Shown: in pieces, positions 38,861-48,571 of the stretch | How the letters are laid out: every line of letters begins with the position of its first letter | How positions within the stretch are numbered: the stretch's first letter is position 1 | From: Solidesulfovibrio sp. | Lineage (GTDB): Bacteria > Desulfobacterota > Desulfovibrionia > Desulfovibrionales > Desulfovibrionaceae | Length of the DNA: 64,000 nt | Direction: 5' to 3' | NCBI RefSeq assembly: GCF_038562415.1 | Contig: NZ_JBCFBA010000001.1 | Coordinates: forward strand, 434,001 to 498,000 | The notes under the pieces: model-generated | Told to the model about the DNA's origin: nothing | What the model saw: only the letters and a program-made list of their open reading frames with translations | The model's database searches: none | Position numbers and translations under genes: made by a program

Positions 38861-38936
38861 GGGGGCGTAGCTCATCTGGGAGAGCGATGCGTTCGCAACG
38901 CATAGGTAGTGGGTTCAAGTCCCATCGCCTCCACCA
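38861..38936 (+). tRNA. tRNA-Ala, anticodon CGC
   Basis: The 76-base gene folds as a complete tRNA with encoded CCA. The acceptor GGGGGCG pairs with CGCCTCC and contains the G3:U70 wobble that identifies tRNA-Ala. The D-arm is GCTC...GAGC, the anticodon arm is ATGCG-TTCGCAA-CGCAT (anticodon at 38894-38896), and the T-arm is GTGGG-TTCAAGT-CCCAT. It reads GCG codons. Its last 20 bases are the left attachment site of the element at 38917-48571, so the 3' end is the element's copy and the gene stays whole. Confidence 0.97.
38917..38936. repeat. attL core (20-bp direct repeat, left copy)
   Basis: AAGTCCCATCGCCTCCACCA forms the end of the T-arm, the 3' acceptor strand and CCA of the tRNA-Ala gene. 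The identical sequence recurs at 48552-48571, which marks the crossover region of the integrase. Confidence 0.95.
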
Positions 38937-38988
38937 CCGGCATAGAACAGGGTAGTCCAATATGGACTTCAAACCCTGAAAATCCCTG

Positions 38989-39025
38989 ACAAAGCTGGGC
39001 TAGCAATAGTCCAGCTTTGTCTTTT
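38989..39025 (+). terminator. replacement terminator after the tRNA, inside the element
   Basis: ACAAAGCTGG / CCAGCTTTGT arms (38989-38998 and 39011-39020) are followed by CTTTTC. The hairpin stands 52 bases after the tRNA and can end its transcript, now that the original terminator has been pushed to 48581. Confidence 0.75.
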
Positions 39026-39062
39026 CCCGTCTTTTGACATCCAACATTTATCGGGTATCAAA

Positions 39063-39173
39063 CCGTACACGGCGGCCATTTTTCGGCCCGACCGTACACG
39101 GGGGTTATCCGAGTCCCGTACCGTGTTTTGAACCGCGTACCCGCCCCCTACGCTGCCGTACACGGCCGTACAC
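39063..39173. repeat. CCGTACAC repeats beside attL (likely integrase/excisionase arm sites)
   Basis: The 8-mer CCGTACAC occurs at 39063, 39092, 39156 and 39166, three times as CCGTACACGG, between attL and the integrase gene. A fifth copy lies at 48478, just inside attR. Arm-type sites of tyrosine integrases are short repeats that flank both att cores in this way. The copies nearest int may also let the integrase or AlpA protein control the int promoter. Confidence 0.65.
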
Positions 39174-39188
39174 CAGGAGGATGGAGCT

Positions 39189-40394
39189 ATGCCCTTAACG
39201 GACACCGCGATTCGCAGCTTCCGGCCCACGGACAAAATCCAACGCATCCGAGACGAGCGCGGCCTGTATCTGGAGGTCCGGCCCAACGGGAACAAGTTTT
39301 GGCGTTTTCGATATTGGATCGACAAGAAAGAGCGCATCCTCAGCCTAGGCCCCTACCCGGAAATATCCCTCCGGGAAGCACGGGAGCGCCGCGAGGAGAC
39401 GCGCAAACTCCTGGCGGGTGGCAAAGACCCGGCCGAGGTCAAAAAGGCCGCCCGCGAGGAAGCCGAAGCGCCCGCGGAAACTTTTGAGCCCATCGCCCGG
39501 GAATGGCACGCACGGAAGTCAAAGACGTGGGTCATCGAGCACGCCGAAAAAATCATCCGCCGGTTCGAGCTTTATATCTTCCCCTGGGTTGGCGCCAAAC
39601 CGATTCGAGAGATCAGCGCGCCCGACCTACTCCAATGCCTGCGACGTATTGAAGATAAAGGAACCATCGAGACTGCCCACCGGGTTCACCAGATTTGTAG
39701 CCAGGTCTTTCGATACGCTATCGCCACGGGCCGCGCCGAGCGTGACCCTACCGCCGACCTTCGCGGTGCCCTGACTCCGGTCAAAGGCAATCACCGTGCG
39801 GCAATAACCGACCCAGCCGGCGCGGGTGAGCTTATGAGGGCTATCGGCGCATACTCCGGTTGCTTCACCACAAGGGTGGCTTTAGCCTTCGGCGTTTTGA
39901 CGTTTGTCCGACCGGGTGAGTTGCGGCACGCCGAATGGGCAGAGATCGACATGGAGCGCGCGGAGTGGCGGATTCCAGGGCCGAAGATGAAGATGCGCGA
40001 GCAGCACATTGTTCCCCTGGCCCAGCAAGCCTTGGAGCTACTAGAACAGCTTTGGCCGCTTACAGGATCGGGGAAATTCTTGTTCCCCTGCGTCCGATCC
40101 GACGCGCGGCCAATGTCCGAGGTCACGATTTTGGCCGCCCTGCGCCGCCTAGGGTACACCCAGGACCAAATGACCGGCCACGGGTTCCGGGCCATGGCCA
40201 GCACGCTACTTAACGAGGCCGGCTGGCCGCCAGACGTGATCGAGCGCCAGCTAGCCCATGCCGAGCGCAACAAGGTCAGGGCCGCCTACAACCGGGCATC
40301 GCTGCTGCCCGAACGCCGACGCATGATGCAGGCGTGGGCAGACTACCTGGACGCCTTGCGCGACGGGAAGGTTGAAGCGACCTGCGCCCCCTAA
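39189..40394 (+). CDS. int: P4-type tyrosine integrase
   Basis: The 401-residue protein has an N-terminal DUF4102 arm-binding domain (about 1-90: MPLTDTAIRSFRPTDKIQRIRDERGLYLEV, FRYWIDKKERILSLGPYPEISLREARERR) and a central SAM-like domain. The C-terminal catalytic domain has Arg in FVRPGELRHAEW, HGFR (about 330), a second His in QLAHAERNKVRAAY and the Tyr nucleophile in that last motif. It inserts the element into the tRNA-Ala gene whose 3' end is 252 bases away. AGGAGG precedes the ATG. Base composition is close to the host's. Confidence 0.96.
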   Translation: MPLTDTAIRSFRPTDKIQRIRDERGLYLEVRPNGNKFWRFRYWIDKKERILSLGPYPEISLREARERREETRKLLAGGKDPAEVKKAAREEAEAPAETFEPIAREWHARKSKTWVIEHAEKIIRRFELYIFPWVGAKPIREISAPDLLQCLRRIEDKGTIETAHRVHQICSQVFRYAIATGRAERDPTADLRGALTPVKGNHRAAITDPAGAGELMRAIGAYSGCFTTRVALAFGVLTFVRPGELRHAEWAEIDMERAEWRIPGPKMKMREQHIVPLAQQALELLEQLWPLTGSGKFLFPCVRSDARPMSEVTILAALRRLGYTQDQMTGHGFRAMASTLLNEAGWPPDVIERQLAHAERNKVRAAYNRASLLPERRRMMQAWADYLDALRDGKVEATCAP

Positions 40395-40420
40395 AATTAT
40401 TTTTTTACGGTAAAACAGTA

Positions 40421-40466
40421 AAAAACGCCAATTCTCTGAGGATAAACTCAGAGAATTGGCGTTTTT
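40421..40466. terminator. strong bidirectional terminator after int
   Basis: A perfect 20-bp stem (arms 40421-40440 and 40447-40466) with a 6-base loop GATAAA starts with five A and ends with five T, so it can end transcription in both directions. It insulates int from the alpA-replication operon. Confidence 0.92.
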
Positions 40467-40528
40467 GCGTTTCCGGGGGCGTTGACCGTGGTGTGCTAGG
40501 GTGGCGCAACTAAATCGGAGGTAGTCCC

Positions 40529-40762
40529 ATGCAGACTGCAAAGACTTTGACCACGACCCCCCTTCCCCTCACAACCCCGCACCTCTTGCGGGAAAGGCAG
40601 GTGCTCCAGCATTTCCCCGTCTCTCGGTCCGAACTTTGGAACCGGGTCCGGGACGGGCGTTTCCCAGCCCCAGTGAAGCTCTCACCCAAGGTCGCCGCGT
40701 GGCGCAGTGTGGATGTGTTGCGCGTACTTGAAGAGTACGGGTGCGTGGATGGGGCGGCCTAA
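40529..40762 (+). CDS. AlpA-family DNA-binding regulator
   Basis: The 77-residue protein has one winged helix-turn-helix of AlpA/MerR type: LLRERQVLQHFPVSRSELWNRVRDGRFPAPVKLSPKVAAWRSVDVLRVLEEYG. In P4-like and PICI-like elements this family acts as excisionase or as switch for int and replication genes. It stands at the head of the replication operon, 3 bases before the primase gene, behind GGAGG. Confidence 0.92.
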   Translation: MQTAKTLTTTPLPLTTPHLLRERQVLQHFPVSRSELWNRVRDGRFPAPVKLSPKVAAWRSVDVLRVLEEYGCVDGAA

Positions 40763-40765
40763 GTC

Positions 40766-41569
40766 ATGAAATTGCAAAAGGAAACCCCCCAAGGGCTGGC
40801 ACCCGAGGGGGGTCAAGAGGCGTGGATTGACGATTTCTTCAAACTTAATAACGGACATCCCCATATAAGTCAAGGGGTGTTCGCTTGGCTGTGGGTGAAC
40901 GCTGACCGCTTCATCCCTTTGGATGCAAAGCACTATTGCTTCAAAATTGAACGTAAAGTTGCGACTTGGTATAGCGTTGTGTACAGCAAACATCGCATTG
41001 CCGTAGACGCTGCGGCCAATCACGCACACTTCTTTTCGATCCATGGCTTTGAAGATGAACCGCTTCCTACCAGTGATCCGCGAAACCTTGATATTGTGCG
41101 CTACGGCCATTGGCACTTGGACTTTGATGCAGATCAATCCGATATTACGCCCGCGTTGATCGATCTTCGCAAGCTGCTGTTCCGAATCCTGCCAGACTAT
41201 GGCGTGGACCCAAAAGTGGTGCCAATTTACTATAGCGGTGGCAAAGGCTTTCACGCGACTATCTTTAACACCTTACTTGGAACCGAAGCCGGTTCCAATA
41301 TTCTTTGGTCTATCTACGGTGAAATGGCAAAGGAGCTAAAGAAGGAACTTCCTACCCTTGATACAGGGATATATAAAAGCGGCAAGGGACAACTTTATCG
41401 AATCCCAAACGTAAAAAGAGAGGAAAAGAATTGTATCCATAAAATCCCTCTCTTGCTGTCGGAAGTAGCAGAACAAGGCGGCTTGTCGATTCCTGAGATA
41501 GTGGAGCTTGCGAAACAACCTCGCCTTATTGCTTTACCTGCTGTCCCTAAAAGCGAGGTGAAGCAATAA
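40766..41569 (+). CDS. archaeo-eukaryotic-type (AEP) primase
   Basis: The 267-residue protein has the AEP catalytic motifs: HLDFDAD (about residue 117, metal-binding Asp pair), YYSGGKGFHAT (about 154) and YRIPNVKR (about 213). It is smaller than full PrimPol proteins and covers mainly the catalytic domain, so it likely needs the helicase encoded next door; their frames overlap by one base (TAATG). It would start DNA synthesis at the element's own origin. Codon use is AT-rich compared with the flanking host genes and the integrase gene. Confidence 0.85.
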   Translation: MKLQKETPQGLAPEGGQEAWIDDFFKLNNGHPHISQGVFAWLWVNADRFIPLDAKHYCFKIERKVATWYSVVYSKHRIAVDAAANHAHFFSIHGFEDEPLPTSDPRNLDIVRYGHWHLDFDADQSDITPALIDLRKLLFRILPDYGVDPKVVPIYYSGGKGFHATIFNTLLGTEAGSNILWSIYGEMAKELKKELPTLDTGIYKSGKGQLYRIPNVKREEKNCIHKIPLLLSEVAEQGGLSIPEIVELAKQPRLIALPAVPKSEVKQ

Positions 41570-43410
41570 TGGGCTCTTTACACACGTTAGTGGAAATCGG
41601 GAAGGCAAGAGCTGGAAAGGATGCGAAAAAACCTATTGCGCCATGGACGGAAGAACAAAAGCAAAAGTTCAAGGAGTTGTTCAAAGACAGTGAACCGGCT
41701 TGTATTGTAGCGTCCAGGACCATGACGGATTATGGCGACAATCCAAACATAGACTTTAATAAGCTAGTTACAATGGTGAAAGTCCCATACTACAAAGTAT
41801 TGGGGTTTCCCGTTGAAGCTGCTATTGAGTGCGAAAGCGATTGGCTAAGTATCTTTGAAGGAAGTGCAAGCTACGATACCGTAAAAAAGCGCACTCAACA
41901 CTTCAAAGAACAATGGAGCTTCGACGGCGCTTTTAGTTGTGCGGTCAACCGTTCCTATATCAAGGGGGTTGACTGTTCTGGCTGTCCTTTCAATGAGCAT
42001 GTTGAAGACTATACACCTCTAAAAAATGTTTATGGGAGTGTAGAGGAAGGGATACAGGACATCAACAGGCTTCATAGTCACGTAATTATCGGAAAAGATA
42101 CTTACGTGCTGAAGATCAACCCACCGAGTGATAAGGGCGATAATGTAACCTTTATGAAGCTACAGGCTTTTCGGGATTGGTACCCGGAAGTTGTTGCTAA
42201 TACTGGAAAGGTGGATAATGACGGGAAGCCGATATACACAGGACTTGCGCCAATATGGCTTAGAAGCAAAGACAGAAGAAAGTACGATGGAGTGGGCTTC
42301 TATCCATATCCTGTCGTAACGCCACCAAACTACTTTAATATGTTTCGCGGGCTTAAAGCAGCAAGAATGAATAGTGTTCCTGGTGCGTCATGTGGTCGAT
42401 ACCTTGAACACGTTCATGATGTAATATGTAGCGGCAATGAACGCATATACAACTATGTCCTAGCATGGCTGGCCCACCTGATTCAACAACCGGGTGACGA
42501 CAAGCCGGGTACTGCAATAGCAATCCGTGGACCACAAGGAAGTGGCAAGGGCACGTTCACCCGTTGGATTCAAAGCGTTATTGGCCCGGCGCATTCAATG
42601 AAGATTTCAACTGAGGAAAGGCTAATCGGTAAGTTCAACCATCACCTCATGGACAAGATTTTTGTCAATGCTGATGAATGCGTCTGGAGTGGGAACAGAA
42701 AGGTTGCTGGCGTGCTCAAAGCATTAATAACGGAAAGCCCATTGGACTTCGAGCAAAAGGGTATCAACGCTGTATCCGTCGATAGTTATACTCGGGTAGT
42801 GTTCACGAGTAATGAACGGTGGATGGTGCCAGCCGACGCTGATGACAGAAGGTTTGTTGTGCTGGATTGTGCAACAACGCACGTTAAGGATATGACGTAT
42901 TATCGTTCAATCATGGACGATATGAAAAACGGTGGCGTTGTTGAGTTGTACAACTTCTTGCTTCATTATGACTATGAATCTGTAGATATTCACCAAGCAC
43001 CAAGTACGCGCGCTTTGATTCTACAGAAGTTGCAAACGCTAACGTCGGTTGATCGGTGGTGGTACACTGTACTTAGTCGTGGATCATTCTCTAGTCACGA
43101 TGGTGTCATGGAGTGTGTTGAAGAGGGTGAACCTCAAACTGGTTGGCCAGTTAATCCAGAGTTTAAGGTGACCCAGGACTTGTACTCAAGCTATAAAGAA
43201 TCACTAAAAGGCAGCGGCAAGCGGGTAGAGGATGATGAGACATTCGGAAGTCGCCTGAAGGATTTGACCGGGGTGACGCCATCGCGTCGGTCGATCCAAG
43301 GGCAGCGGCGGCGGCGGGGCTTCGCACTCCCGTCCCTGCCGGAGTGCCGGGCCGCGTTCACGAGGTTCATGCATTCGACCGAGGAAGACATGGATTGGCC
43401 CGAGGCGTAG
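41569..43410 (+). CDS. D5/SF3-type replicative helicase
   Basis: The 613-residue protein has an N-terminal part with a Cys motif (CAVNRSYIKGVDCSGC, about 124-139) and an SF3-like ATPase: Walker A GPQGSGKGT (about 320), Walker B IFVNADE (about 364), and SNERWMVPADADDRRFVVLD (sensor/arginine region, about 407). This family, typical of phage and satellite primase-helicases (DUF5906/D5), unwinds DNA at the origin. The last 50 or so codons (from about 43260) switch sharply to GC-rich sequence with a run of Arg codons (RSIQGQRRRRG), which suggests a recombination join. A repeat-bearing hairpin terminator follows the stop. Confidence 0.88.
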   Translation: MGSLHTLVEIGKARAGKDAKKPIAPWTEEQKQKFKELFKDSEPACIVASRTMTDYGDNPNIDFNKLVTMVKVPYYKVLGFPVEAAIECESDWLSIFEGSASYDTVKKRTQHFKEQWSFDGAFSCAVNRSYIKGVDCSGCPFNEHVEDYTPLKNVYGSVEEGIQDINRLHSHVIIGKDTYVLKINPPSDKGDNVTFMKLQAFRDWYPEVVANTGKVDNDGKPIYTGLAPIWLRSKDRRKYDGVGFYPYPVVTPPNYFNMFRGLKAARMNSVPGASCGRYLEHVHDVICSGNERIYNYVLAWLAHLIQQPGDDKPGTAIAIRGPQGSGKGTFTRWIQSVIGPAHSMKISTEERLIGKFNHHLMDKIFVNADECVWSGNRKVAGVLKALITESPLDFEQKGINAVSVDSYTRVVFTSNERWMVPADADDRRFVVLDCATTHVKDMTYYRSIMDDMKNGGVVELYNFLLHYDYESVDIHQAPSTRALILQKLQTLTSVDRWWYTVLSRGSFSSHDGVMECVEEGEPQTGWPVNPEFKVTQDLYSSYKESLKGSGKRVEDDETFGSRLKDLTGVTPSRRSIQGQRRRRGFALPSLPECRAAFTRFMHSTEEDMDWPEA

Positions 43411-43416
43411 CGGCCT

Positions 43417-43467
43417 ATCTGCCAGGGGTGGCCCAGCCTTGCCATAGGCCCCCCTGGCAGATTTTTT
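43417..43467 (+). terminator. terminator of the replication operon, built on the origin repeat
   Basis: Arms ATCTGCCAGGGG (43417-43428) and CCCCTGGCAGAT (43451-43462) pair perfectly, with an inner TGGC/GCCA pair, and six T follow (43462-43467). The stem contains the repeat TGCCAGGGGTG that recurs through the next 240 bases. Confidence 0.8.
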
Positions 43468-43670
43468 ACCGTTATTTCATTTAGTTAAATAGCCATGCCA
43501 GGGGTGTCATAGCAAAAAGATGTTTTGAAAAAGATTGATGTGAAGTGCTTGGCCATTAAAGAATTTGCGCGTTTTGCTATGACACCCCTGGCAACAGCTC
43601 TTAACTTATCGTCGGGACTTATCATTTTCTGTCAGGGGGGGCTATGGCAGGCCTGGTCCACCCCTGGCAA
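43420..43670. repeat. TGCCAGGGGTG repeat cluster, candidate replication origin
   Basis: The 11-mer TGCCAGGGGTG occurs four times exactly: direct at 43420-43430 and 43496-43506, inverted at 43583-43593 and 43659-43669, with near-copies at 43450 and 43631. The middle two belong to a perfect 22-bp inverted repeat (43496-43517 and 43572-43593) around a 54-base AT-rich spacer. The cluster lies directly after the primase-helicase genes, where P4-like replicons often keep origin repeats. The 586-base stretch 43411-43996 holds no convincing gene; a frame at 43525-43821 looks like chance. Confidence 0.7.
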
Positions 43671-43943
43671 TCACATCACCCACCCTGATCGGACGCGCGC
43701 CGGGCAGGCAGCGCGCCACCACCCCCGTGGCGGCCTCGCCAGCGGGCCGTGGAGGCGTCCTACGCTCCCGATCCGACCAACAGGTCACGCCGACGACAAA
43801 CGGCCGGCTAGAGCGTTCTAAGGGGATGGGGGTAAAAATCTTTGGAAGTTCGCGCCTTTAGACCGAGTGCGCCCCAAGATTCGAGCGCTGTCAAATTTGC
43901 AGGGTTTTTCCGACCGTGGAGGTAGAGTTCGTCATAAAACTTT

Positions 43944-43973
43944 AAGCGCGCCATAAAATTATATGACGCGCTT
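43944..43973 (-). terminator. hairpin after the RHH-ParB-like gene
   Basis: AAGCGCG-T-CATA on the minus strand pairs with TATG-G-CGCGCTT (arms within 43944-43973, one mismatch, AT-rich loop). It lies 24 bases beyond the stop of the minus-strand gene at 43997; TTT-rich sequence flanks both sides, so it could act in either direction. Confidence 0.6.
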
Positions 43974-43996
43974 TTAAATTTAAGCAGAATCAGGTT

Positions 43997-44665
43997 TTAT
44001 TTTTCTGCTAGTTCGTCCCATTCAGCCTTGAACTTGCTACTTTCTTCCGAAGAAAGTTCACGACGATGCAGATTTTCAGCTATTGCTTGGAGTTTCATTA
44101 TTTCCGGCTTGTCCTTAACAACAAAGGCGTCAATACTACGGCTGTGAGTTAACCTAACCGCTTCAAGTCGTTTAAATCCTGAAACAACTTCATATCTAGC
44201 CTGTTCTTTTCCATTCTTTATCACAGTATGCTCTTTTACCGTGATCGGGTTTATCAATCCAACCTTATGAATACTGTCCGCAAGTAAGTCAATGAAGTCC
44301 TTGTCTTCGTAATGCACAAAACGCGGGTCAATCAAATCTAAGTCAATTCTTTCCAATTTATGAGTAGGACCAACCATTGACTGTTCCAATGGTTGGATGG
44401 GCCTACCCGCCCAGCCGCCTAGCAGCATTCCTGAAAGCACCTCAGAATACGTCTGCCCTGTTTCAGTGCAAAGCCGTTTCAGTTCTTGGTAAGCGTCGTC
44501 CGGTAGATTGATACTGACTTGCTTAACTTTGGCCAGACGTAGCCGGTAACGCCGTGTCTGCTGTCGCTCTGCTGCTGATGCAGGATCGAGAAGCCGAGCA
44601 CTCGCCGCTTCCTCTTCTGGCGTTCGTGGCCGTTCCCGTAATTTTCTTTCTTCCGAAGGTTTCAT
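43997..44665 (-). CDS. RHH + ParB-like (ParB/Srx fold) protein
   Basis: The 222-residue protein combines a ribbon-helix-helix domain (about 48-82: VKQVSINLPDDAYQELKRLCTETGQTYSEVLSGML) with a ParB N-terminal domain (about 105-205: IDLDLIDPR, DLLADSIHKVGLINPITVKEH, YEVVSGFKRLEAVRL, LQAIAENLHRRELS). The ParB helix-turn-helix domain is missing, so the RHH part probably binds DNA instead. The ATG at 44665 is chosen because AAAGGGGAG precedes it; the upstream ATG at 44728 has no ribosome site and would place palindromic sites inside the gene. No ParA partner is present. It may control copy number, partition or transcription of the element. Confidence 0.85.
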   Translation of the reverse strand: MKPSEERKLRERPRTPEEEAASARLLDPASAAERQQTRRYRLRLAKVKQVSINLPDDAYQELKRLCTETGQTYSEVLSGMLLGGWAGRPIQPLEQSMVGPTHKLERIDLDLIDPRFVHYEDKDFIDLLADSIHKVGLINPITVKEHTVIKNGKEQARYEVVSGFKRLEAVRLTHSRSIDAFVVKDKPEIMKLQAIAENLHRRELSSEESSKFKAEWDELAEK

Positions 44666-44676
44666 AGCTCCCCTTT

Positions 44677-44766
44677 GTGACAAGTCACTTTTTTGTTTTT
44701 CGTTACTGGTCACAACGGGCTGTCCCATCGTGACCAGTCACATAAATAAGTTTCGTGACTGGTCAC
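44677..44766. promoter_or_regulatory. four phased GTGAC-N2-GTCAC palindromes
   Basis: The dyads lie at 44677-44688, 44702-44713 (one mismatch, GTTAC), 44730-44741 and 44755-44766, with starts 25, 28 and 25 bases apart, close to whole numbers of half helical turns. All are upstream of the chosen start of the RHH-ParB-like gene, so they are probably its operator or a parS-like centromere. Confidence 0.8.
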
Positions 44767-45145
44767 GTCAAGGGGGTGCCGCGCGTTTTCCGCAAGTGGT
44801 GCTGGCCCCATTTGCGCCAGGGGCCGGTGCGACACACCCACCGCCACCCGGGCCGCGCCTCGCCCCCGCCCACTCCTGCGCCATTACCCGTCATGGTTGA
44901 CGCCTATCCTGCTGAAATCCTTCCCGGAATCAGAAATTCTTAGGCCAGCTCGCCGGCCCGCAAAATAAGCCAGTCATTCCGCTATGTTGGGAATAGGCGA
45001 CATGGTGGCCAAAAAAGTGGCCCGAAATGGCGTCCTGGAGACCCCCAAAAAGGCCGCATTTTCCTTATATAACACACAATTTTCACGAGACCCCTTGCAA
45101 TGACCAAATTTTTATGCTTACAATATGCTTACAGGAGGTGGAGAG
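44767..45145. other. intergenic stretch with tandem ATGCTTACA before the capsid operon
   Basis: I see no gene here: the short frames lack ribosome sites. The end is AT-rich and carries ATGCTTACA twice (45114-45122 and 45125-45133, 11 bases apart), just before the ribosome site of the RHH gene. A TTGCAA at 45095-45100 may be part of its promoter, so the repeat could be the autoregulatory operator of the RHH protein. Confidence 0.5.
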
Positions 45146-45457
45146 ATGACCACCAAAATGACTCACATGCTCCGCGTCGCGCCCGAGACCGCCCGAAGGC
45201 TCAAAGCCTACGCCCGGGAGGACGGCCGGACGATGGACGGAGCAATCAACGCACTGCTCGATGAGAAAGGTTTTCCGCGACATCACTTGCCTGACCCGTT
45301 TTTATGGGCCGGTGATCCTGAAGGGACCGAACGGTTCCAGGCGATGCTGACCGCCGCCGAAGCGGCCGGCGATGCGCCCCTTGCTGATTTTGCCCGTGAA
45401 CGGCTGCGCCAGATCGAGGACTACGTGGCCGGCAAAACCAGCGAGGCCGAAGAGTGA
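45146..45457 (+). CDS. RHH-like (Arc/CopG-type) small protein
   Basis: The 103-residue protein starts MTTKMTHMLRVAPETARRLKAYAREDGRTMDGAINALLDEK, a ribbon-helix-helix-like N-terminus, followed by an acidic helical tail. It resembles antitoxin-type or phage repressor RHH proteins. AGGAGG lies 8 bases before the ATG at 45146. The stop overlaps the next start by GTGA, and a capsid gene follows, so it may regulate capsid expression. No toxin gene is paired with it. Confidence 0.7.
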   Translation: MTTKMTHMLRVAPETARRLKAYAREDGRTMDGAINALLDEKGFPRHHLPDPFLWAGDPEGTERFQAMLTAAEAAGDAPLADFARERLRQIEDYVAGKTSEAEE

Positions 45458-45624
45458 GCACACCCACGAGCCCACGCGATGCGGAACGCATGTTCCGTGA
45501 ACAAGGCTTTTCACGCAAAGCCGCCAAAATCGCCGTTGCGGGAATGCGCTCCCAAGGTGCTTTTAAGCAAAAGCCCAAGCAAAACTTTGTAACCAGAATC
45601 TTCAACGCTCTAAAAGGAGAGTGA
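45454..45624 (+). CDS. 56-residue basic protein between RHH and capsid genes
   Basis: The GTG at 45454 overlaps the preceding stop (GTGA) and opens 56 codons: MSTPTSPRDAERMFREQGF, then SRKAAKIAVAGMRSQGAF and a Lys-rich end KQKPKQNFVTRIFNALKGE. It ends 4 bases before the capsid ATG, and the capsid ribosome site AAGGAGAG lies in its last codons, so translation is tightly coupled. I do not recognise a family. Its position suggests a head-assembly factor such as a scaffold or size determinant, but this is inference. Confidence 0.65.
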   Translation: MSTPTSPRDAERMFREQGFSRKAAKIAVAGMRSQGAFKQKPKQNFVTRIFNALKGE

Positions 45625-45628
45625 CAGA

Positions 45629-46738
45629 ATGGAAGCTGAAATCAAAAGCCTTATCGAACAACAGGGACAGGCGTTCCTTGACTTCAAGGCCAAACACGAC
45701 GGCGACATTGAACAGCTTAGTGCGGCCATGGATGAGCTTTTCAAGAAGGCCAACCGTCCGCCTGCGGCTGGTGGAGGTTCTTGGCGCGGCGATGAAATCA
45801 AGTCAAAGCTGGCCAGTTACATCAAGTCCGGCGACATGTCGTTGTTTGGACAGAAGGCCCTGACTACTGCGACTGATTCCGGTGGCGTTGTTGTGCCGAA
45901 GCAGCTTGCTTCTGAAATTGTGAATCTGCAACAGAAGTACAGTCCGCTTCGTTCCGTCTGCCGTGTCGTGCAGATTGAAACGCTCGCCAGCAACTATAGC
46001 CAGCCTGTAAATACAGGCGGAGTTGATAGTGGTTGGGTTGGTGAAGTCGATGCCCGGCCCGCTACCAACACGCCGAACCTGTCTAACGTGGATTTCCCGG
46101 ACAGCGAGGTTTATGCAAATCTTCCGATTTCGCAATGGTTTGAGGAAGACGCCCGTGTTGCTGATTGGCTGGTGAATGAAATTGCCAAGGAATTTTCCCG
46201 CAAAGAAGGCGCGGCCTTCGTTAGCGGCAATGGCGTGAAGCAGCCGAAGGGCATCCTTGCTTACGCTACTGCGGCCACGGACGATGATACGCGGGCCTAT
46301 GGAACGATTCAGCACGTCGTTTCCGGCGATGCTGCGGCTATCAAGCCTGACAGCTTGATTGACCTGCTTTACACTTTGCGCCCGGAATACAGAAGCAACG
46401 CCACTTGGTTGTGCAACTCCAAGACGCTGGCCGCTATCCGCAAGTTGAAGGACGGCGACGGCAATAGCATGTGGCAGCCGGCCCTTATGCAGGGACAGCC
46501 GCAACTGTTGCTTGGCTATCCGCTGCTTGAATGCAACGACTGGCCGGACGTTTCGGAAAATGCTTTCCCGCTGGCCGTTGGTGACTTCCGCTCGGCTTAC
46601 TACATCTTGGACAGGACGCAAACTTTGCTGAGAGACCCGTTTACGGCGAAGCCGAATGTCTTGTTTTATGCCCGCAAGCGCGTTTCTGGTGCTCTCGTTG
46701 ACAGTCAGGCCGTCAAGCTCTTGAAGATTTCGGCCTAG
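45629..46738 (+). CDS. HK97-fold phage major capsid protein
   Basis: The 369-residue protein has the HK97 gp5 layout. Residues 1-45 form a coiled-coil delta domain (MEAEIKSLIEQQGQAFLDFK). Then GGVVVPKQLASEIVNLQQKYSPLRSVCRVVQ starts the shell domain, with an E-loop region around GWVGEVDARPATNT, NLPISQWFEEDARVADWLVNEIAKEFSRKEGAAFVSGNG (spine helix) and LLGYPLLECNDWP...LAVGDFRSAYYILDRTQTLLRDPFT (P-domain/A-domain end). This is a full-length, intact capsid subunit. There is no prohead protease, portal or terminase nearby, which is unusual for HK97 heads and points to helper dependence or decay. Confidence 0.95.
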   Translation: MEAEIKSLIEQQGQAFLDFKAKHDGDIEQLSAAMDELFKKANRPPAAGGGSWRGDEIKSKLASYIKSGDMSLFGQKALTTATDSGGVVVPKQLASEIVNLQQKYSPLRSVCRVVQIETLASNYSQPVNTGGVDSGWVGEVDARPATNTPNLSNVDFPDSEVYANLPISQWFEEDARVADWLVNEIAKEFSRKEGAAFVSGNGVKQPKGILAYATAATDDDTRAYGTIQHVVSGDAAAIKPDSLIDLLYTLRPEYRSNATWLCNSKTLAAIRKLKDGDGNSMWQPALMQGQPQLLLGYPLLECNDWPDVSENAFPLAVGDFRSAYYILDRTQTLLRDPFTAKPNVLFYARKRVSGALVDSQAVKLLKISA

Positions 46739-46748
46739 TAAATAGTTA

Positions 46749-46770
46749 CGTCGGCCTTCTCCCCGACGTG
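46749..46770 (+). terminator. hairpin after the capsid gene
   Basis: ACGTCGG (46749-46755) pairs with CCGACGT (46764-46770) 10 bases after the capsid stop. There is no T-run, so it is a weak terminator or an mRNA-end stabiliser. The following bases up to 46968 hold only a small inverted repeat (TTACAGTA/TACTGTAA at 46856-46889) and no gene. Confidence 0.45.
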
Positions 46771-46968
46771 GCATCATCATTGCCAGGGCTGGATACACCT
46801 GCGGGACGCTTGCCAGCCCATTACAAAATTTCGCGGTGATACAGCCGCAATCGATTTACAGTAAGCGTCCGCCCCGGCGCATACTGTAACCGGCCCGGCG
46901 GTGGAGAATCCGGCAGGCACCATGCAACCTGCAAACCCACCGCTGGACCGGGATTCAATGATGATGTA

Positions 46969-47352
46969 CTATACAGAAGAGGTATTTGAAGGAAGTAAGT
47001 GCAATTCAATTTTTCCGCCGAGAGTGTCGTCTGGACAGGAAAATAGCGCAGACAGCTTGGCAAGTGGCTTGTGTCCTTTGTCTATCATTTGAGATAGTTT
47101 TTCAGCTTCCTCACTTGCAATGTATCCAATTTGACCATGCTCAGAAATAATAGCTATTGCGTTAGGATCATAAGGGTTATTTGGCTCTCTTACTGCATTT
47201 ACGACCGCCCATTTTTTTAGTTTAGAGAAGGCGGCTTGGCGGTTAGTTCCATCCCTGTTATCATGTCTTGTTCCAACAACACTCAAATCTTCAATAACAA
47301 CTGTTCCTTCTGGAGGATTGTTCCAATCGTTCCAGGAAATGTAAAAGTCCAT
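46969..47352 (-). CDS. free-standing HIRAN-domain protein
   Basis: The 127-residue protein has a HIRAN domain (about 22-100): LSVVGTRHDNRDG...AFSKLKKWAVVNAVREPNNPYDPNAIAIISEHGQIGYIASEEAEKL. HIRAN domains of HLTF-type helicases bind 3' single-stranded DNA ends. Here no helicase is attached. It may guard or recognise replication intermediates, or act against host defence; this is inference. The ATG at 47352 is chosen for AAGGGG eight bases upstream; a longer start at 47406 has no ribosome site. Confidence 0.8.
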   Translation of the reverse strand: MDFYISWNDWNNPPEGTVVIEDLSVVGTRHDNRDGTNRQAAFSKLKKWAVVNAVREPNNPYDPNAIAIISEHGQIGYIASEEAEKLSQMIDKGHKPLAKLSALFSCPDDTLGGKIELHLLPSNTSSV

Positions 47353-47505
47353 ACTTTGTTTCCCCTTATAAGTATGCCCCATCTGTTTGTTCGTGAATAT
47401 TGTCATATCGGAAAAGTGGTTGGGTGGCCACGATTTTGTGCATTTCCCCTTGACGATTTATTCCATGCCCAGATAAACTCTCTTTTGTCTAAACTGCTAG
47501 GGTGT

Positions 47506-47537
47506 CCCGCGCCCTTAATCGCGGGGTTTTGTTTTTT
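47506..47537 (+). terminator. intrinsic terminator
   Basis: CCCGCG (47506-47511) pairs with CGCGGG (47520-47525), followed by GTTTTGTTTTTT. No plus-strand gene ends nearby, so it may close a short leader or small RNA that starts at or before the left 17-bp repeat. Confidence 0.65.
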
Positions 47538-47573
47538 AGCGATATAGCGCCGCACTGTGTCGGTGATATACCG

Positions 47574-47640
47574 GGCTCCAAGATTCCTTGCGTGGTGACG
47601 CGTGGGGGCGCTCTAGCAGGCGTAGACAAATCTTGGAGCC
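47574..47640 (+). terminator. long hairpin with T-rich end, possible terminator or small RNA
   Basis: GGCTCCAAGATT (47574-47585) pairs perfectly with AATCTTGGAGCC (47629-47640) around a 43-base loop, and TTTTCTATTT follows. The 12-bp stem and the T-rich 3' flank resemble the closing stem of a structured RNA or an anti-terminator. The stretch 47353-47694 has no gene beyond these elements. Confidence 0.5.
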
Positions 47641-47694
47641 TTTTCTATTTGGCTCAAGGCTCTACAATTGTCTAAACTGCTAGGAGACTTCACC

Positions 47695-48087
47695 ATGACC
47701 ACGTTCACATTTCCCATTCCCGTCAACGTCCTTGAAGAAATCCAGCCCTACCCGCGTGACTGTCCCTCCGTTGAGATCGTCGAGGAAATCAAAGCCACCT
47801 GGGGAGATCGCGGCCCGTTGCCGGCCGGCGGGTATCACGTCGTTGTGGTCGTTCCCAAACTGACCGCCCACACCCGCGACGGCTTGCACAAGCCTGTGCT
47901 GACGTACATCTGGCGGGCGTTGCGTTTGGCCAACGTCCTCGATACCCCGCCGTCTACCGTGTACGTTGGTTTTGAGGCTGGCGACGTTGCCGAGCCAGTG
48001 GCCACGGTCACGATGCAACAAATCCGGCACCCGGACGGTACGCCGTTTGTGTTGCCCAACCGGGGGGCCGAAGCGTGCGCCGCCTGA
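47695..48087 (+). CDS. unknown 130-residue protein of the element
   Basis: The protein starts MTTFTFPIPVNVLEEIQPYPRD behind AGGAGA and has no signal peptide or membrane segment. It has a beta-rich middle (GGYHVVVVVPKLTAHTRDG) and TVYVGFEAGDVAEPVATVTMQQIRHPDGTPFVL near the end. I do not recognise a family. Its stop lies inside the next gene, which starts at 48075, so both are co-translated. Confidence 0.75.
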   Translation: MTTFTFPIPVNVLEEIQPYPRDCPSVEIVEEIKATWGDRGPLPAGGYHVVVVVPKLTAHTRDGLHKPVLTYIWRALRLANVLDTPPSTVYVGFEAGDVAEPVATVTMQQIRHPDGTPFVLPNRGAEACAA

Positions 48088-48359
48088 CGCTGACCGCCAC
48101 CGTCGCGGTGCTGCTGGCCGCCGGGCCGGCTCTGGCTGGGCAGGAGGGGGAAACACGGCTGTATGGCCCGTCTGGCGAGTATCAGGGGCGCGCTACGCCC
48201 GATGCTGCCAACCCGAGGCAAAAGAGCCTGTATGGGCCGCATGGAGAGTATCGGGGCAGGGCCATGGTGGACGACCAGGGCAACGCCAGGGTTTATGACC
48301 AGCACGGCAAATACATTGGCAGGACGACCGGCGGCAGGATGACGGACCCAAAGAAATAG
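48075..48359 (+). CDS. small secreted protein with three YGPxGEYxGR repeats
   Basis: The 94-residue precursor starts at GTG 48075, inside the previous gene's end. It has a signal peptide (RRLTLTATVAVLLAAGPALAG). Three repeats follow: LYGPSGEYQGRA, LYGPHGEYRGRA and VYDQHGKYIGRT, about 26-30 residues apart. Similar short tandem YGPxG units occur in envelope proteins carried by mobile elements, but no function is known to me. A strong terminator follows. It could alter the cell surface of the carrier. Confidence 0.78.
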   Translation: MRRLTLTATVAVLLAAGPALAGQEGETRLYGPSGEYQGRATPDAANPRQKSLYGPHGEYRGRAMVDDQGNARVYDQHGKYIGRTTGGRMTDPKK

Positions 48360-48378
48360 CGTCGGTTGGAGCGACGGA

Positions 48379-48413
48379 AAGGGTGTGTCGCTTCCGGCAC
48401 ACCCTTTTTGTTT
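48379..48413 (+). terminator. intrinsic terminator at the right end of the element
   Basis: AAGGGTGTG (48379-48387) pairs with CACACCCTT (48398-48406) around a 10-base loop, followed by TTTGTTTGTT. It closes the last operon of the element. Confidence 0.88.
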
Positions 48414-48477
48414 GTTGCCTCAACGCCATGAGGAGTGGTGATCCGTCAACGGGACCGTCAAAAACACTTTATTCCTA

Positions 48478-48485
48478 CCGTACAC
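48478..48485. repeat. CCGTACAC copy beside attR
   Basis: The only copy noticed near the right end of the 8-mer that stands four times beside attL. It is 66 bases from the attR core, consistent with an arm-type integrase site. Confidence 0.55.
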
Positions 48486-48551
48486 CGAAACGGACACCAC
48501 TTTGAAAATATTTTTTTAATCCTGTAATATCAGATAAATAAGTGGCACTTT

Positions 48552-48571
48552 AAGTCCCATCGCCTCCACCA
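48552..48571. repeat. attR core (20-bp direct repeat, right copy)
   Basis: AAGTCCCATCGCCTCCACCA is identical to the last 20 bases of tRNA-Ala at 38917-38936. It is a leftover tRNA 3' end with no tRNA body before it, as expected after integration. Confidence 0.95.

Follow-up and report, generated by a model that had tools for sequence, protein, structure and literature searches.

The window analysed here, a 64,000-nucleotide stretch of a Solidesulfovibrio sp. genome (assembly GCF_038562415.1, contig NZ_JBCFBA010000001.1, positions 434,001 to 498,000), contains an element of ~9.65 kb (38917-48571) that lies inside a tRNA-Ala gene, flanked by exact 20-bp repeats, and carries a single capsid gene of the HK97 type. 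We consider it probable that this element is an integrated satellite of the phage-inducible chromosomal island (PICI)/P4-like kind, and that its late operon remodels the head of a helper phage, with the element's own capsid protein co-assembling with helper parts. The presumed operon has three genes, which encode a small ribbon-helix-helix (RHH) protein, a 56-residue open reading frame (ORF) that is the free C-terminal tail of a prohead protease, and a capsid protein with a shortened delta region. The original prediction, made from the letters of the window, had already proposed a capsid-bringing satellite. This proposal is strengthened by the recurrence elsewhere of elements bounded by attachment (att) sites that combine replication genes with a lone capsid gene and give no terminase, portal or connector matches.

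A lone capsid gene and its recurrence

The element was scanned with profiles for large and small terminase, portal, connector and tape measure, each built from 3-5 phages and then iterated over the collected loci. No element match to the terminase, portal, connector or tape-measure profiles was found at E up to 0.1, although head proteins of other lineages could escape such profiles. General library scans of the element proteins gave no matches to lysis genes, and the protease profile matched only the 56-residue ORF next to the capsid gene. The predicted lack of terminase and portal genes thus agrees with the profile matches, whereas the predicted lack of a protease has to be amended, as the C-terminal tail ORF is present.

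Relatives of the capsid were surveyed in 348 genomes of the order, in a phylum sample of 395 genomes, and in the best 80 of 131 places in a genome collection, where loci were viewed within up to 10 kb on each side of the capsid. Within the order, 20 of the 348 genomes have a capsid relative; three of these are satellite-like (the window, G008 and G310), 16 lie in a head operon and one (L161) is ambiguous. Among the best 80 of the 131 collection relatives, 72 are accompanied by a portal, protease or large-terminase match, five have an integrase and none of these three (L064, L065, L066, L067 and L135, of which L065 is the G008 contig again), and three are on contigs too short or cut to classify (L101, L124 and L126). 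In the phylum sample, seven of the 395 genomes gave a match at E <=1e-30. Three were already in the set; the others are a head operon (L178), a contig-end fragment (L179) and two new satellite-like loci (L176 and L177).

Nine satellite-like loci result, with a lone capsid gene in the window, L064, L038, L043, L066, L135 and L176, and additional small-terminase-like (TerS-like) genes in L067 and L177. The six lone-capsid loci besides the window lie in other genomes and carry their own, differing replication genes, with an integrase in five of the six; in all seven, no terminase, portal or connector match was found. The replication genes comprise Prim-Pol and DUF3987 (L038), AAA_25 (L043), a DnaB-like gene (L066), D5_N (L064 and L135), and D5_N with a primase zinc finger (L176). 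Direct repeats were found at L064 (48 bp, at both ends of its 9.8-kb contig), L135 (90 bp at 98%), L066 (47 bp), L038 (23 bp of tmRNA), L043 (21 bp, one mismatch) and L067 (15 bp, weak), and the span from repeat to repeat is ~9.2-10.9 kb across the satellite-like loci. The integration targets are tmRNA in L038, tRNA-Met in L066 and L135, and in L176 once more tRNA-Ala(CGC), on a contig where neither an integrase nor a second repeat was seen. The L064 repeat resembles a tRNA 3' half by eye, ARAGORN finding none; no tRNA was found at L043. As for the organisms, L065 is from a Desulfomicrobium metagenome-assembled genome (MAG), L066 from Ca. Thiodiazotropha, L135 from Ca. Oceanisphaera, L067 from a Geobacter MAG and L064 from an Acidobacteria MAG, which is perhaps misbinned because its capsid is 81% identical to that of the window.

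The nearest relative of the capsid, that of L064, therefore lies in a satellite-like locus and not in a full prophage; more distant capsids (<50% identity) do occur in prophages. Between its repeats, L064 has integrase, primase, helicase, RHH, tail and capsid in the same core order; AlpA and RHH-ParB genes were not seen there. A helicase scan of viral contigs gave no relative, and none of the loci from the viral-contig capsid scans (15 loci, 6, and 80 of a larger set) is satellite-like: 12 of 15, 5 of 6 and 75 of 80 have a portal, protease or large-terminase match, the remaining 3, 1 and 5 being short contigs. Capsid relatives were also collected from phage and plasmid records (370, 119 and, for L135, 587 records), and five phage regions were examined.

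Some individual features of these loci deserve mention. The ends of the L064 contig (L064:1-9791) coincide exactly with both copies of the repeat, which may reflect a circular form or a mixed population, or a mere repeat break in assembly; two L064 genes resemble a HigBA pair. An AbiJ-like defence gene, apparently cargo, lies inside the L043 element (L043:13690-14643). L067:10636-12439 holds the TerS-like genes with a Clp-type protease and HK97-gp10, and L177:5972-9547 the TerS-like genes with a tape-measure-like gene. Neither locus has a portal or large-terminase match, and their gene set is intermediate.

A free protease tail and a shortened delta region

The first lead to the nature of the 56-residue ORF was one weak tblastn match (E 0.8) to the annotated prohead protease of a single phage, present in two records. 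In the alignment, PRDAERMFREQGFSRKAAKIAV of this ORF stands opposite protease tails such as IREAELALREAGFSRKQAKLIL. A tail profile was built from the four satellite ORFs of this type (window, L064, L135 and L176) and searched against 47,462 six-frame ORFs drawn from the loci; where loci overlap, some genes are counted twice. Its 117 matches at E<1 consist of 110 protease ORFs (of 193 so marked), five query ORFs (one twice) and two others at E 0.2; of the 110, 76 have E <=0.1 and only 17 have E <=0.001. Among the 80 smallest values listed, the match ends 11-35 residues before the protease C-terminus. In the reverse direction, positions 155-186 of the 196-position protease profile match the window ORF (E 4e-4 in a set of 1,985 ORFs), and the tails of L135 and L064 are matched at E 0.002; the L176 ORF is not listed at E 0.1. 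As this profile had been iterated over the loci, the reverse match serves as a consistency check. No catalytic protease part was found upstream of the tail ORF in the window. These profile matches identify the 56-residue ORF, which lies upstream of the capsid gene and is coupled to it, as the C-terminal tail of a prohead protease. The arrangement appears to be new: a literature search, with most subscription journals outside it, gave no paper joining satellite, prohead protease, capsid and PICI.

The start of the tail gene overlaps the RHH stop codon (GTGA in the window, ATGA in L064). Between the window and L064, the tail has a dN/dS of 0.22/0.74, with a Fisher p of 0.001; the values of RHH and capsid are 0.18/2.19 and 0.16/1.19. 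This substitution pattern shows purifying selection on tail and capsid. Pseudogenes of head genes had been named as a finding that would speak against a satellite. A piece of a protease gene was indeed found, but it has its own start codon, is present in three other loci and is under purifying selection relative to the nearest relative. Judged from its position and retention, it is probably the segment through which the protease docks onto the capsid. By eye, no tail-type ORF precedes the capsid gene in L038, L043, L066, L067 or L177; in L177, a partly masked ORF after the capsid gene has a tail-like match.

The capsid core is full length and is modelled as an HK97 fold. In the AlphaFold2 model (mean pLDDT 79), residues 2-41 form a single helix and most of residues 42-86 are of low confidence. 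The closest solved structures by fold and sequence are the RcGTA capsid (6tb9) and the capsid of the capsid-forming PICI (cf-PICI) EcCI2 (9gyi). The capsid profile A3 matched 11 PDB sequences, including 7rwz_B (402 aa) at E 0.0034; none has 355 aa, the length of the staphylococcal protein Ccm discussed below. We measured delta length by regular expression, as the number of residues from the F..FK motif to the GG..VP motif. It is 69, 70, 80, 75 and 73 in lone-capsid loci and 69 and 73 in those with TerS-like genes, that is, in all seven measurable satellite-like capsids, and 89-105 in 103 of the 111 head-operon capsids measured (175 in total, 64 not measurable). The delta region in seven of the nine satellite-like loci is consequently 9-36 residues shorter than in those 103; eight head-operon values of 55-60 are taken as artefacts of the expression, the coil being seen at full length. 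L039 and L042 hold the nearest prophage capsids in the family, and relative to these the window capsid has 23 residues fewer between the F and RP motifs. The shortening in most satellite-like capsids appears to be new, though the trait is not exclusive to them.

A quick tree does not gather the satellite capsids into a single clade but scatters them. It gives five changes, of which the starred branches force only one, and so decides for neither one origin nor several; it omits eight head-operon capsids without the trimming motif, capsids of <330 residues and the duplicates L061, L063 and L065. The L066 capsid, which is 62% identical to that of L068 in the core, may be a recent capture because it is placed among head-operon capsids.

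Known satellites and competing explanations

Lone satellite capsids are less exceptional than the original prediction had held, to judge by the accessible parts of the papers cited here. In 21 of 29 reference Gram-negative PICIs a capsid gene is present, and it is not required for transfer (PMC10111431). Deletion of the capsid or decoration gene of EcCICFT073 did not restore phage growth, and PmCI172, which has a capsid homologue, forms small heads; such islands are described in Enterobacteriaceae and Pasteurellaceae (PMC6092414). According to its annotation, EcCICFT073 resembles the element in having an integrase, a helix-turn-helix regulator, a DNA primase, a small ORF and a major capsid gene, and in listing no terminase, portal or tail gene. 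It differs in its additional head decoration gene and, by eye, in its type of capsid N-terminus and in an upstream 68-aa ORF that is not protease-tail-like. The staphylococcal pathogenicity island (SaPI) SaPIbov5 needs no protein of its own other than Ccm (355 residues) to redirect helper assembly; Ccm forms the pentamers of T=4 heads, makes no shells alone, and has a cleaved delta domain of residues 1-87 as against 1-128 in the helper protein (PMC6893505, PMC8569155). SaPIbov5 and the element thus each bring one HK97-type capsid homologue with a short delta domain, shorter than in the actual helper for Ccm and shorter than in most measured phage relatives for the element. Unlike the element's protein, Ccm is of another capsid lineage (7rwz_B only at E 0.003) and comes from a Gram-positive host, and the accessible text of these papers mentions no protease tail. 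Rpp, of 144-153 residues, is a different protein (PMC6739421), and general background is given in PMC11389934 and PMC12409344.

The element also shows the Gram-negative PICI traits of integrase, AlpA-like regulator and direct att repeats, and it shares with P4-like satellites the integrase (41% identical to P4 Int), AlpA, its own primase and helicase, and a tRNA site. Primase and helicase are two proteins here, whereas P4 has a single alpha protein for both. P4-like satellites carry Sid, Psu or Delta genes; library scans gave no match to these among the ten element proteins, the presence of the models in the libraries being unchecked. cf-PICIs have their own head set of terminase, portal, protease, capsid and connectors, unlike the element, which has a capsid and a protease tail only and no other whole head gene. 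A literature search on phage satellites and Desulfovibrio, again with most subscription journals outside it, returned only apparently unrelated papers.

If the element is a head-remodelling satellite, integrase and AlpA would insert it into tRNA-Ala and excise it again, and replication would depend on its own primase and helicase. The target of the three-gene late operon would be the head of a helper phage that enters the cell. Most likely, the satellite capsid would co-assemble with helper portal and capsid protein into a head for ~10 kb, while the tail and the helper protease would compete for the delta region, or the tail would be a small scaffold in trans; the helper would supply packaging, protease, tail and lysis. 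In phage lambda (Nu3) and herpesvirus (UL26.5), the C-terminal part of the protease, made alone, is a scaffold. By analogy, we tentatively entertain a two-piece head-remodelling module, in which the short-scaffold capsid would be joined by the freed docking tail; this tail would serve as a scaffold in trans, or would be a decoy that excludes the helper protease from satellite heads.

Several points weigh against the head-remodelling satellite. The element is known here from sequence alone, and we infer both helper and particles. It has no small-terminase (terS) profile match, five of the nine satellite-like loci are without a confirmed free tail, and the selection test covers one pair of loci. 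The capsids of L038 and L043 have an N-terminus of another kind, which spans ~105 residues up to the GG motif. Capsids with short N-termini are found in some head operons too, both Sphingopyxis-type (L068, L072, L074, L076 and L078) and viral (L144 and L146), with possible starts 80-98 residues before that motif; because of these, delta length alone is no mark of a satellite and was rejected as a marker.

With regard to a helper in the host, PF05065 matches nothing in the genome except the element capsid, and neither the PF04860 portal nor phrog_9 (name unchecked) has a match there. No HK97-type helper prophage of that kind is therefore seen, as there is no other PF05065 and no PF04860. The family phrog_2, which we take to be the large terminase, matches at three places (best 4e-25, this one carrying Terminase_6N at 6e-6). 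These were rejected as a resident helper, the profile being unspecific (control positive in 13 of 14 genomes); by eye, the surroundings of the best place are without a head operon. A possible prophage fragment lies outside the window (G000:C13:74839-75822): a Terminase_6N-like gene in a genome where PF04860 portal has no match.

Three other explanations were weighed. It seems unlikely that the capsid gene is a passenger from a captured part of a head operon, dispensable for transfer or serving phage interference only: the protease tail does suggest that the module derives from a protease-capsid segment, but the capsid frame is open in all nine satellite-like loci, is under purifying selection between the window and L064, and stands beside unlike replication modules. 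We give less credence still to a capsid-forming satellite of minimal set, which would build its own whole shell and take only portal, terminase, protease and tail from the helper. The full-length, HK97-folded core and the kinship with the EcCI2 capsid are consistent with this, yet a foreign portal and connectors would have to fit the shell, cf-PICIs bring several head genes, and Ccm alone forms no shells. It is very improbable that the element is a prophage that has decayed in this strain by losing its other head genes, even though a protease tail adjoins an intact capsid gene, given the absence of any terminase, portal or connector trace at E 0.1, the core gene order that L064 keeps between its repeats (albeit without AlpA and RHH-ParB genes seen) and five further lone-capsid loci.

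Given its recurrence, the layout seems to be a functional means of taking over and remodelling phage heads, not a defective virus. If the head-remodelling satellite is real, satellites in several bacterial groups share a similar small head-reshaping kit, and lone-capsid satellites extend beyond the Enterobacteriaceae, Pasteurellaceae and staphylococci of the accessible literature. A free tail retained beside a capsid with trimmed scaffold would then point to the function of HK97-type protease tails, and would offer a handle on how head size is set by delta length and a trans-acting tail.

Integration site and accessory genes

The features of the element are listed in Table 1. The matches bear out the att repeats, P4-type integrase, AlpA-like protein, primase, D5 helicase and intact capsid of the original prediction, the archaeo-eukaryotic type of the primase being that prediction's reading only; the 56-residue ORF, the RHH-ParB protein with its four palindromes and the HIRAN protein are additions. 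The att sequence occurs in two copies in the window, both exact, even when up to two mismatches are allowed, and in none of 100 shuffles.

Table 1 Features of the element and its integration site (window positions).
Feature	Position	Strand	Basis
tRNA-Ala (CGC), integration target	38861-38936	+	tRNA call; Rfam
att repeat, tRNA side, 20 bp exact	38917-38936	+	AAGTCCCATCGCCTCCACCA, repeat search
P4-type tyrosine integrase, 401 aa	39189-40394	+	PF13356, PF22022, PF00589
AlpA-like excisionase/regulator, 77 aa	40529-40762	+	PF05930, 2.3e-9
Primase, 267 aa	40766-41569	+	phrog_16345, 5e-16; no Pfam match
D5-type helicase, 613 aa	41569-43410	+	PF19263, 7e-22; phrog_1156
RHH + ParB_N protein, 243 aa	43997-44728	-	library match; RHH_5 below curated cut-off
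Four GTGACNNGTCAC palindromes, 5' end of RHH-ParB gene	44677-44766		motif scan
Small RHH protein, first gene of presumed capsid operon	45146-45457	+	RHH_10 below its cut-off
Prohead-protease tail as a free gene, 56 aa, GTG start	45454-45624	+	profile comparison both ways
HK97-type major capsid protein, 369 aa, shortened delta region	45629-46738	+	PF05065, 4e-72
HIRAN-domain protein, 145 aa	46969-47406	-	PF08797, 2e-13
Protein without family match, 139 aa	47668-48087	+	ORF; no match in library scans
94-aa ORF, far end of element	48075-48359	+	ORF; no library match
att repeat, far side, 20 bp exact	48552-48571	+	AAGTCCCATCGCCTCCACCA, repeat search

The GC content per 500-base bin is 0.41-0.63 in the element and 0.64-0.73 in nearly all bins outside it. 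The Rfam scan gave no RNA besides the tRNA, and promoter and terminator scans gave counts near the shuffled means. A candidate empty site was found in one same-genus genome (L274 in G328), where the tRNA-Ala is identical at 76/76 positions and the left flank is 85% identical to the window over 724 columns. There, the 80 bases from the att core onward are 77% identical and directly contiguous, 33 of them at 91%, and by this alignment the locus reads as an empty integration site. The evidence comes from one genome only, as the 11 further same-genus loci found via the right-flank gene have no tRNA-Ala within the available stretch.

Three of the palindromes are exact and one has a mismatch, with start-to-start spacings of 25, 28 and 25 bases. 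Allowing one mismatch, GTGACNNGTCAC occurs five times in the window versus 1.4 times in shuffles, five being reached by one shuffle. The palindromes are probable operators of the RHH-ParB gene, whose product is likely a repressor or partition factor, and they may control the capsid operon as well. The longest ORF of the small RHH gene begins at 45125, yet AGGAGG precedes the ATG at 45146; a relative of this protein is present in L064. The HIRAN protein is possibly cargo, and so may be the 94-aa ORF, which by eye has a signal-peptide-like start and YGPxGEYxGRA repeat units.

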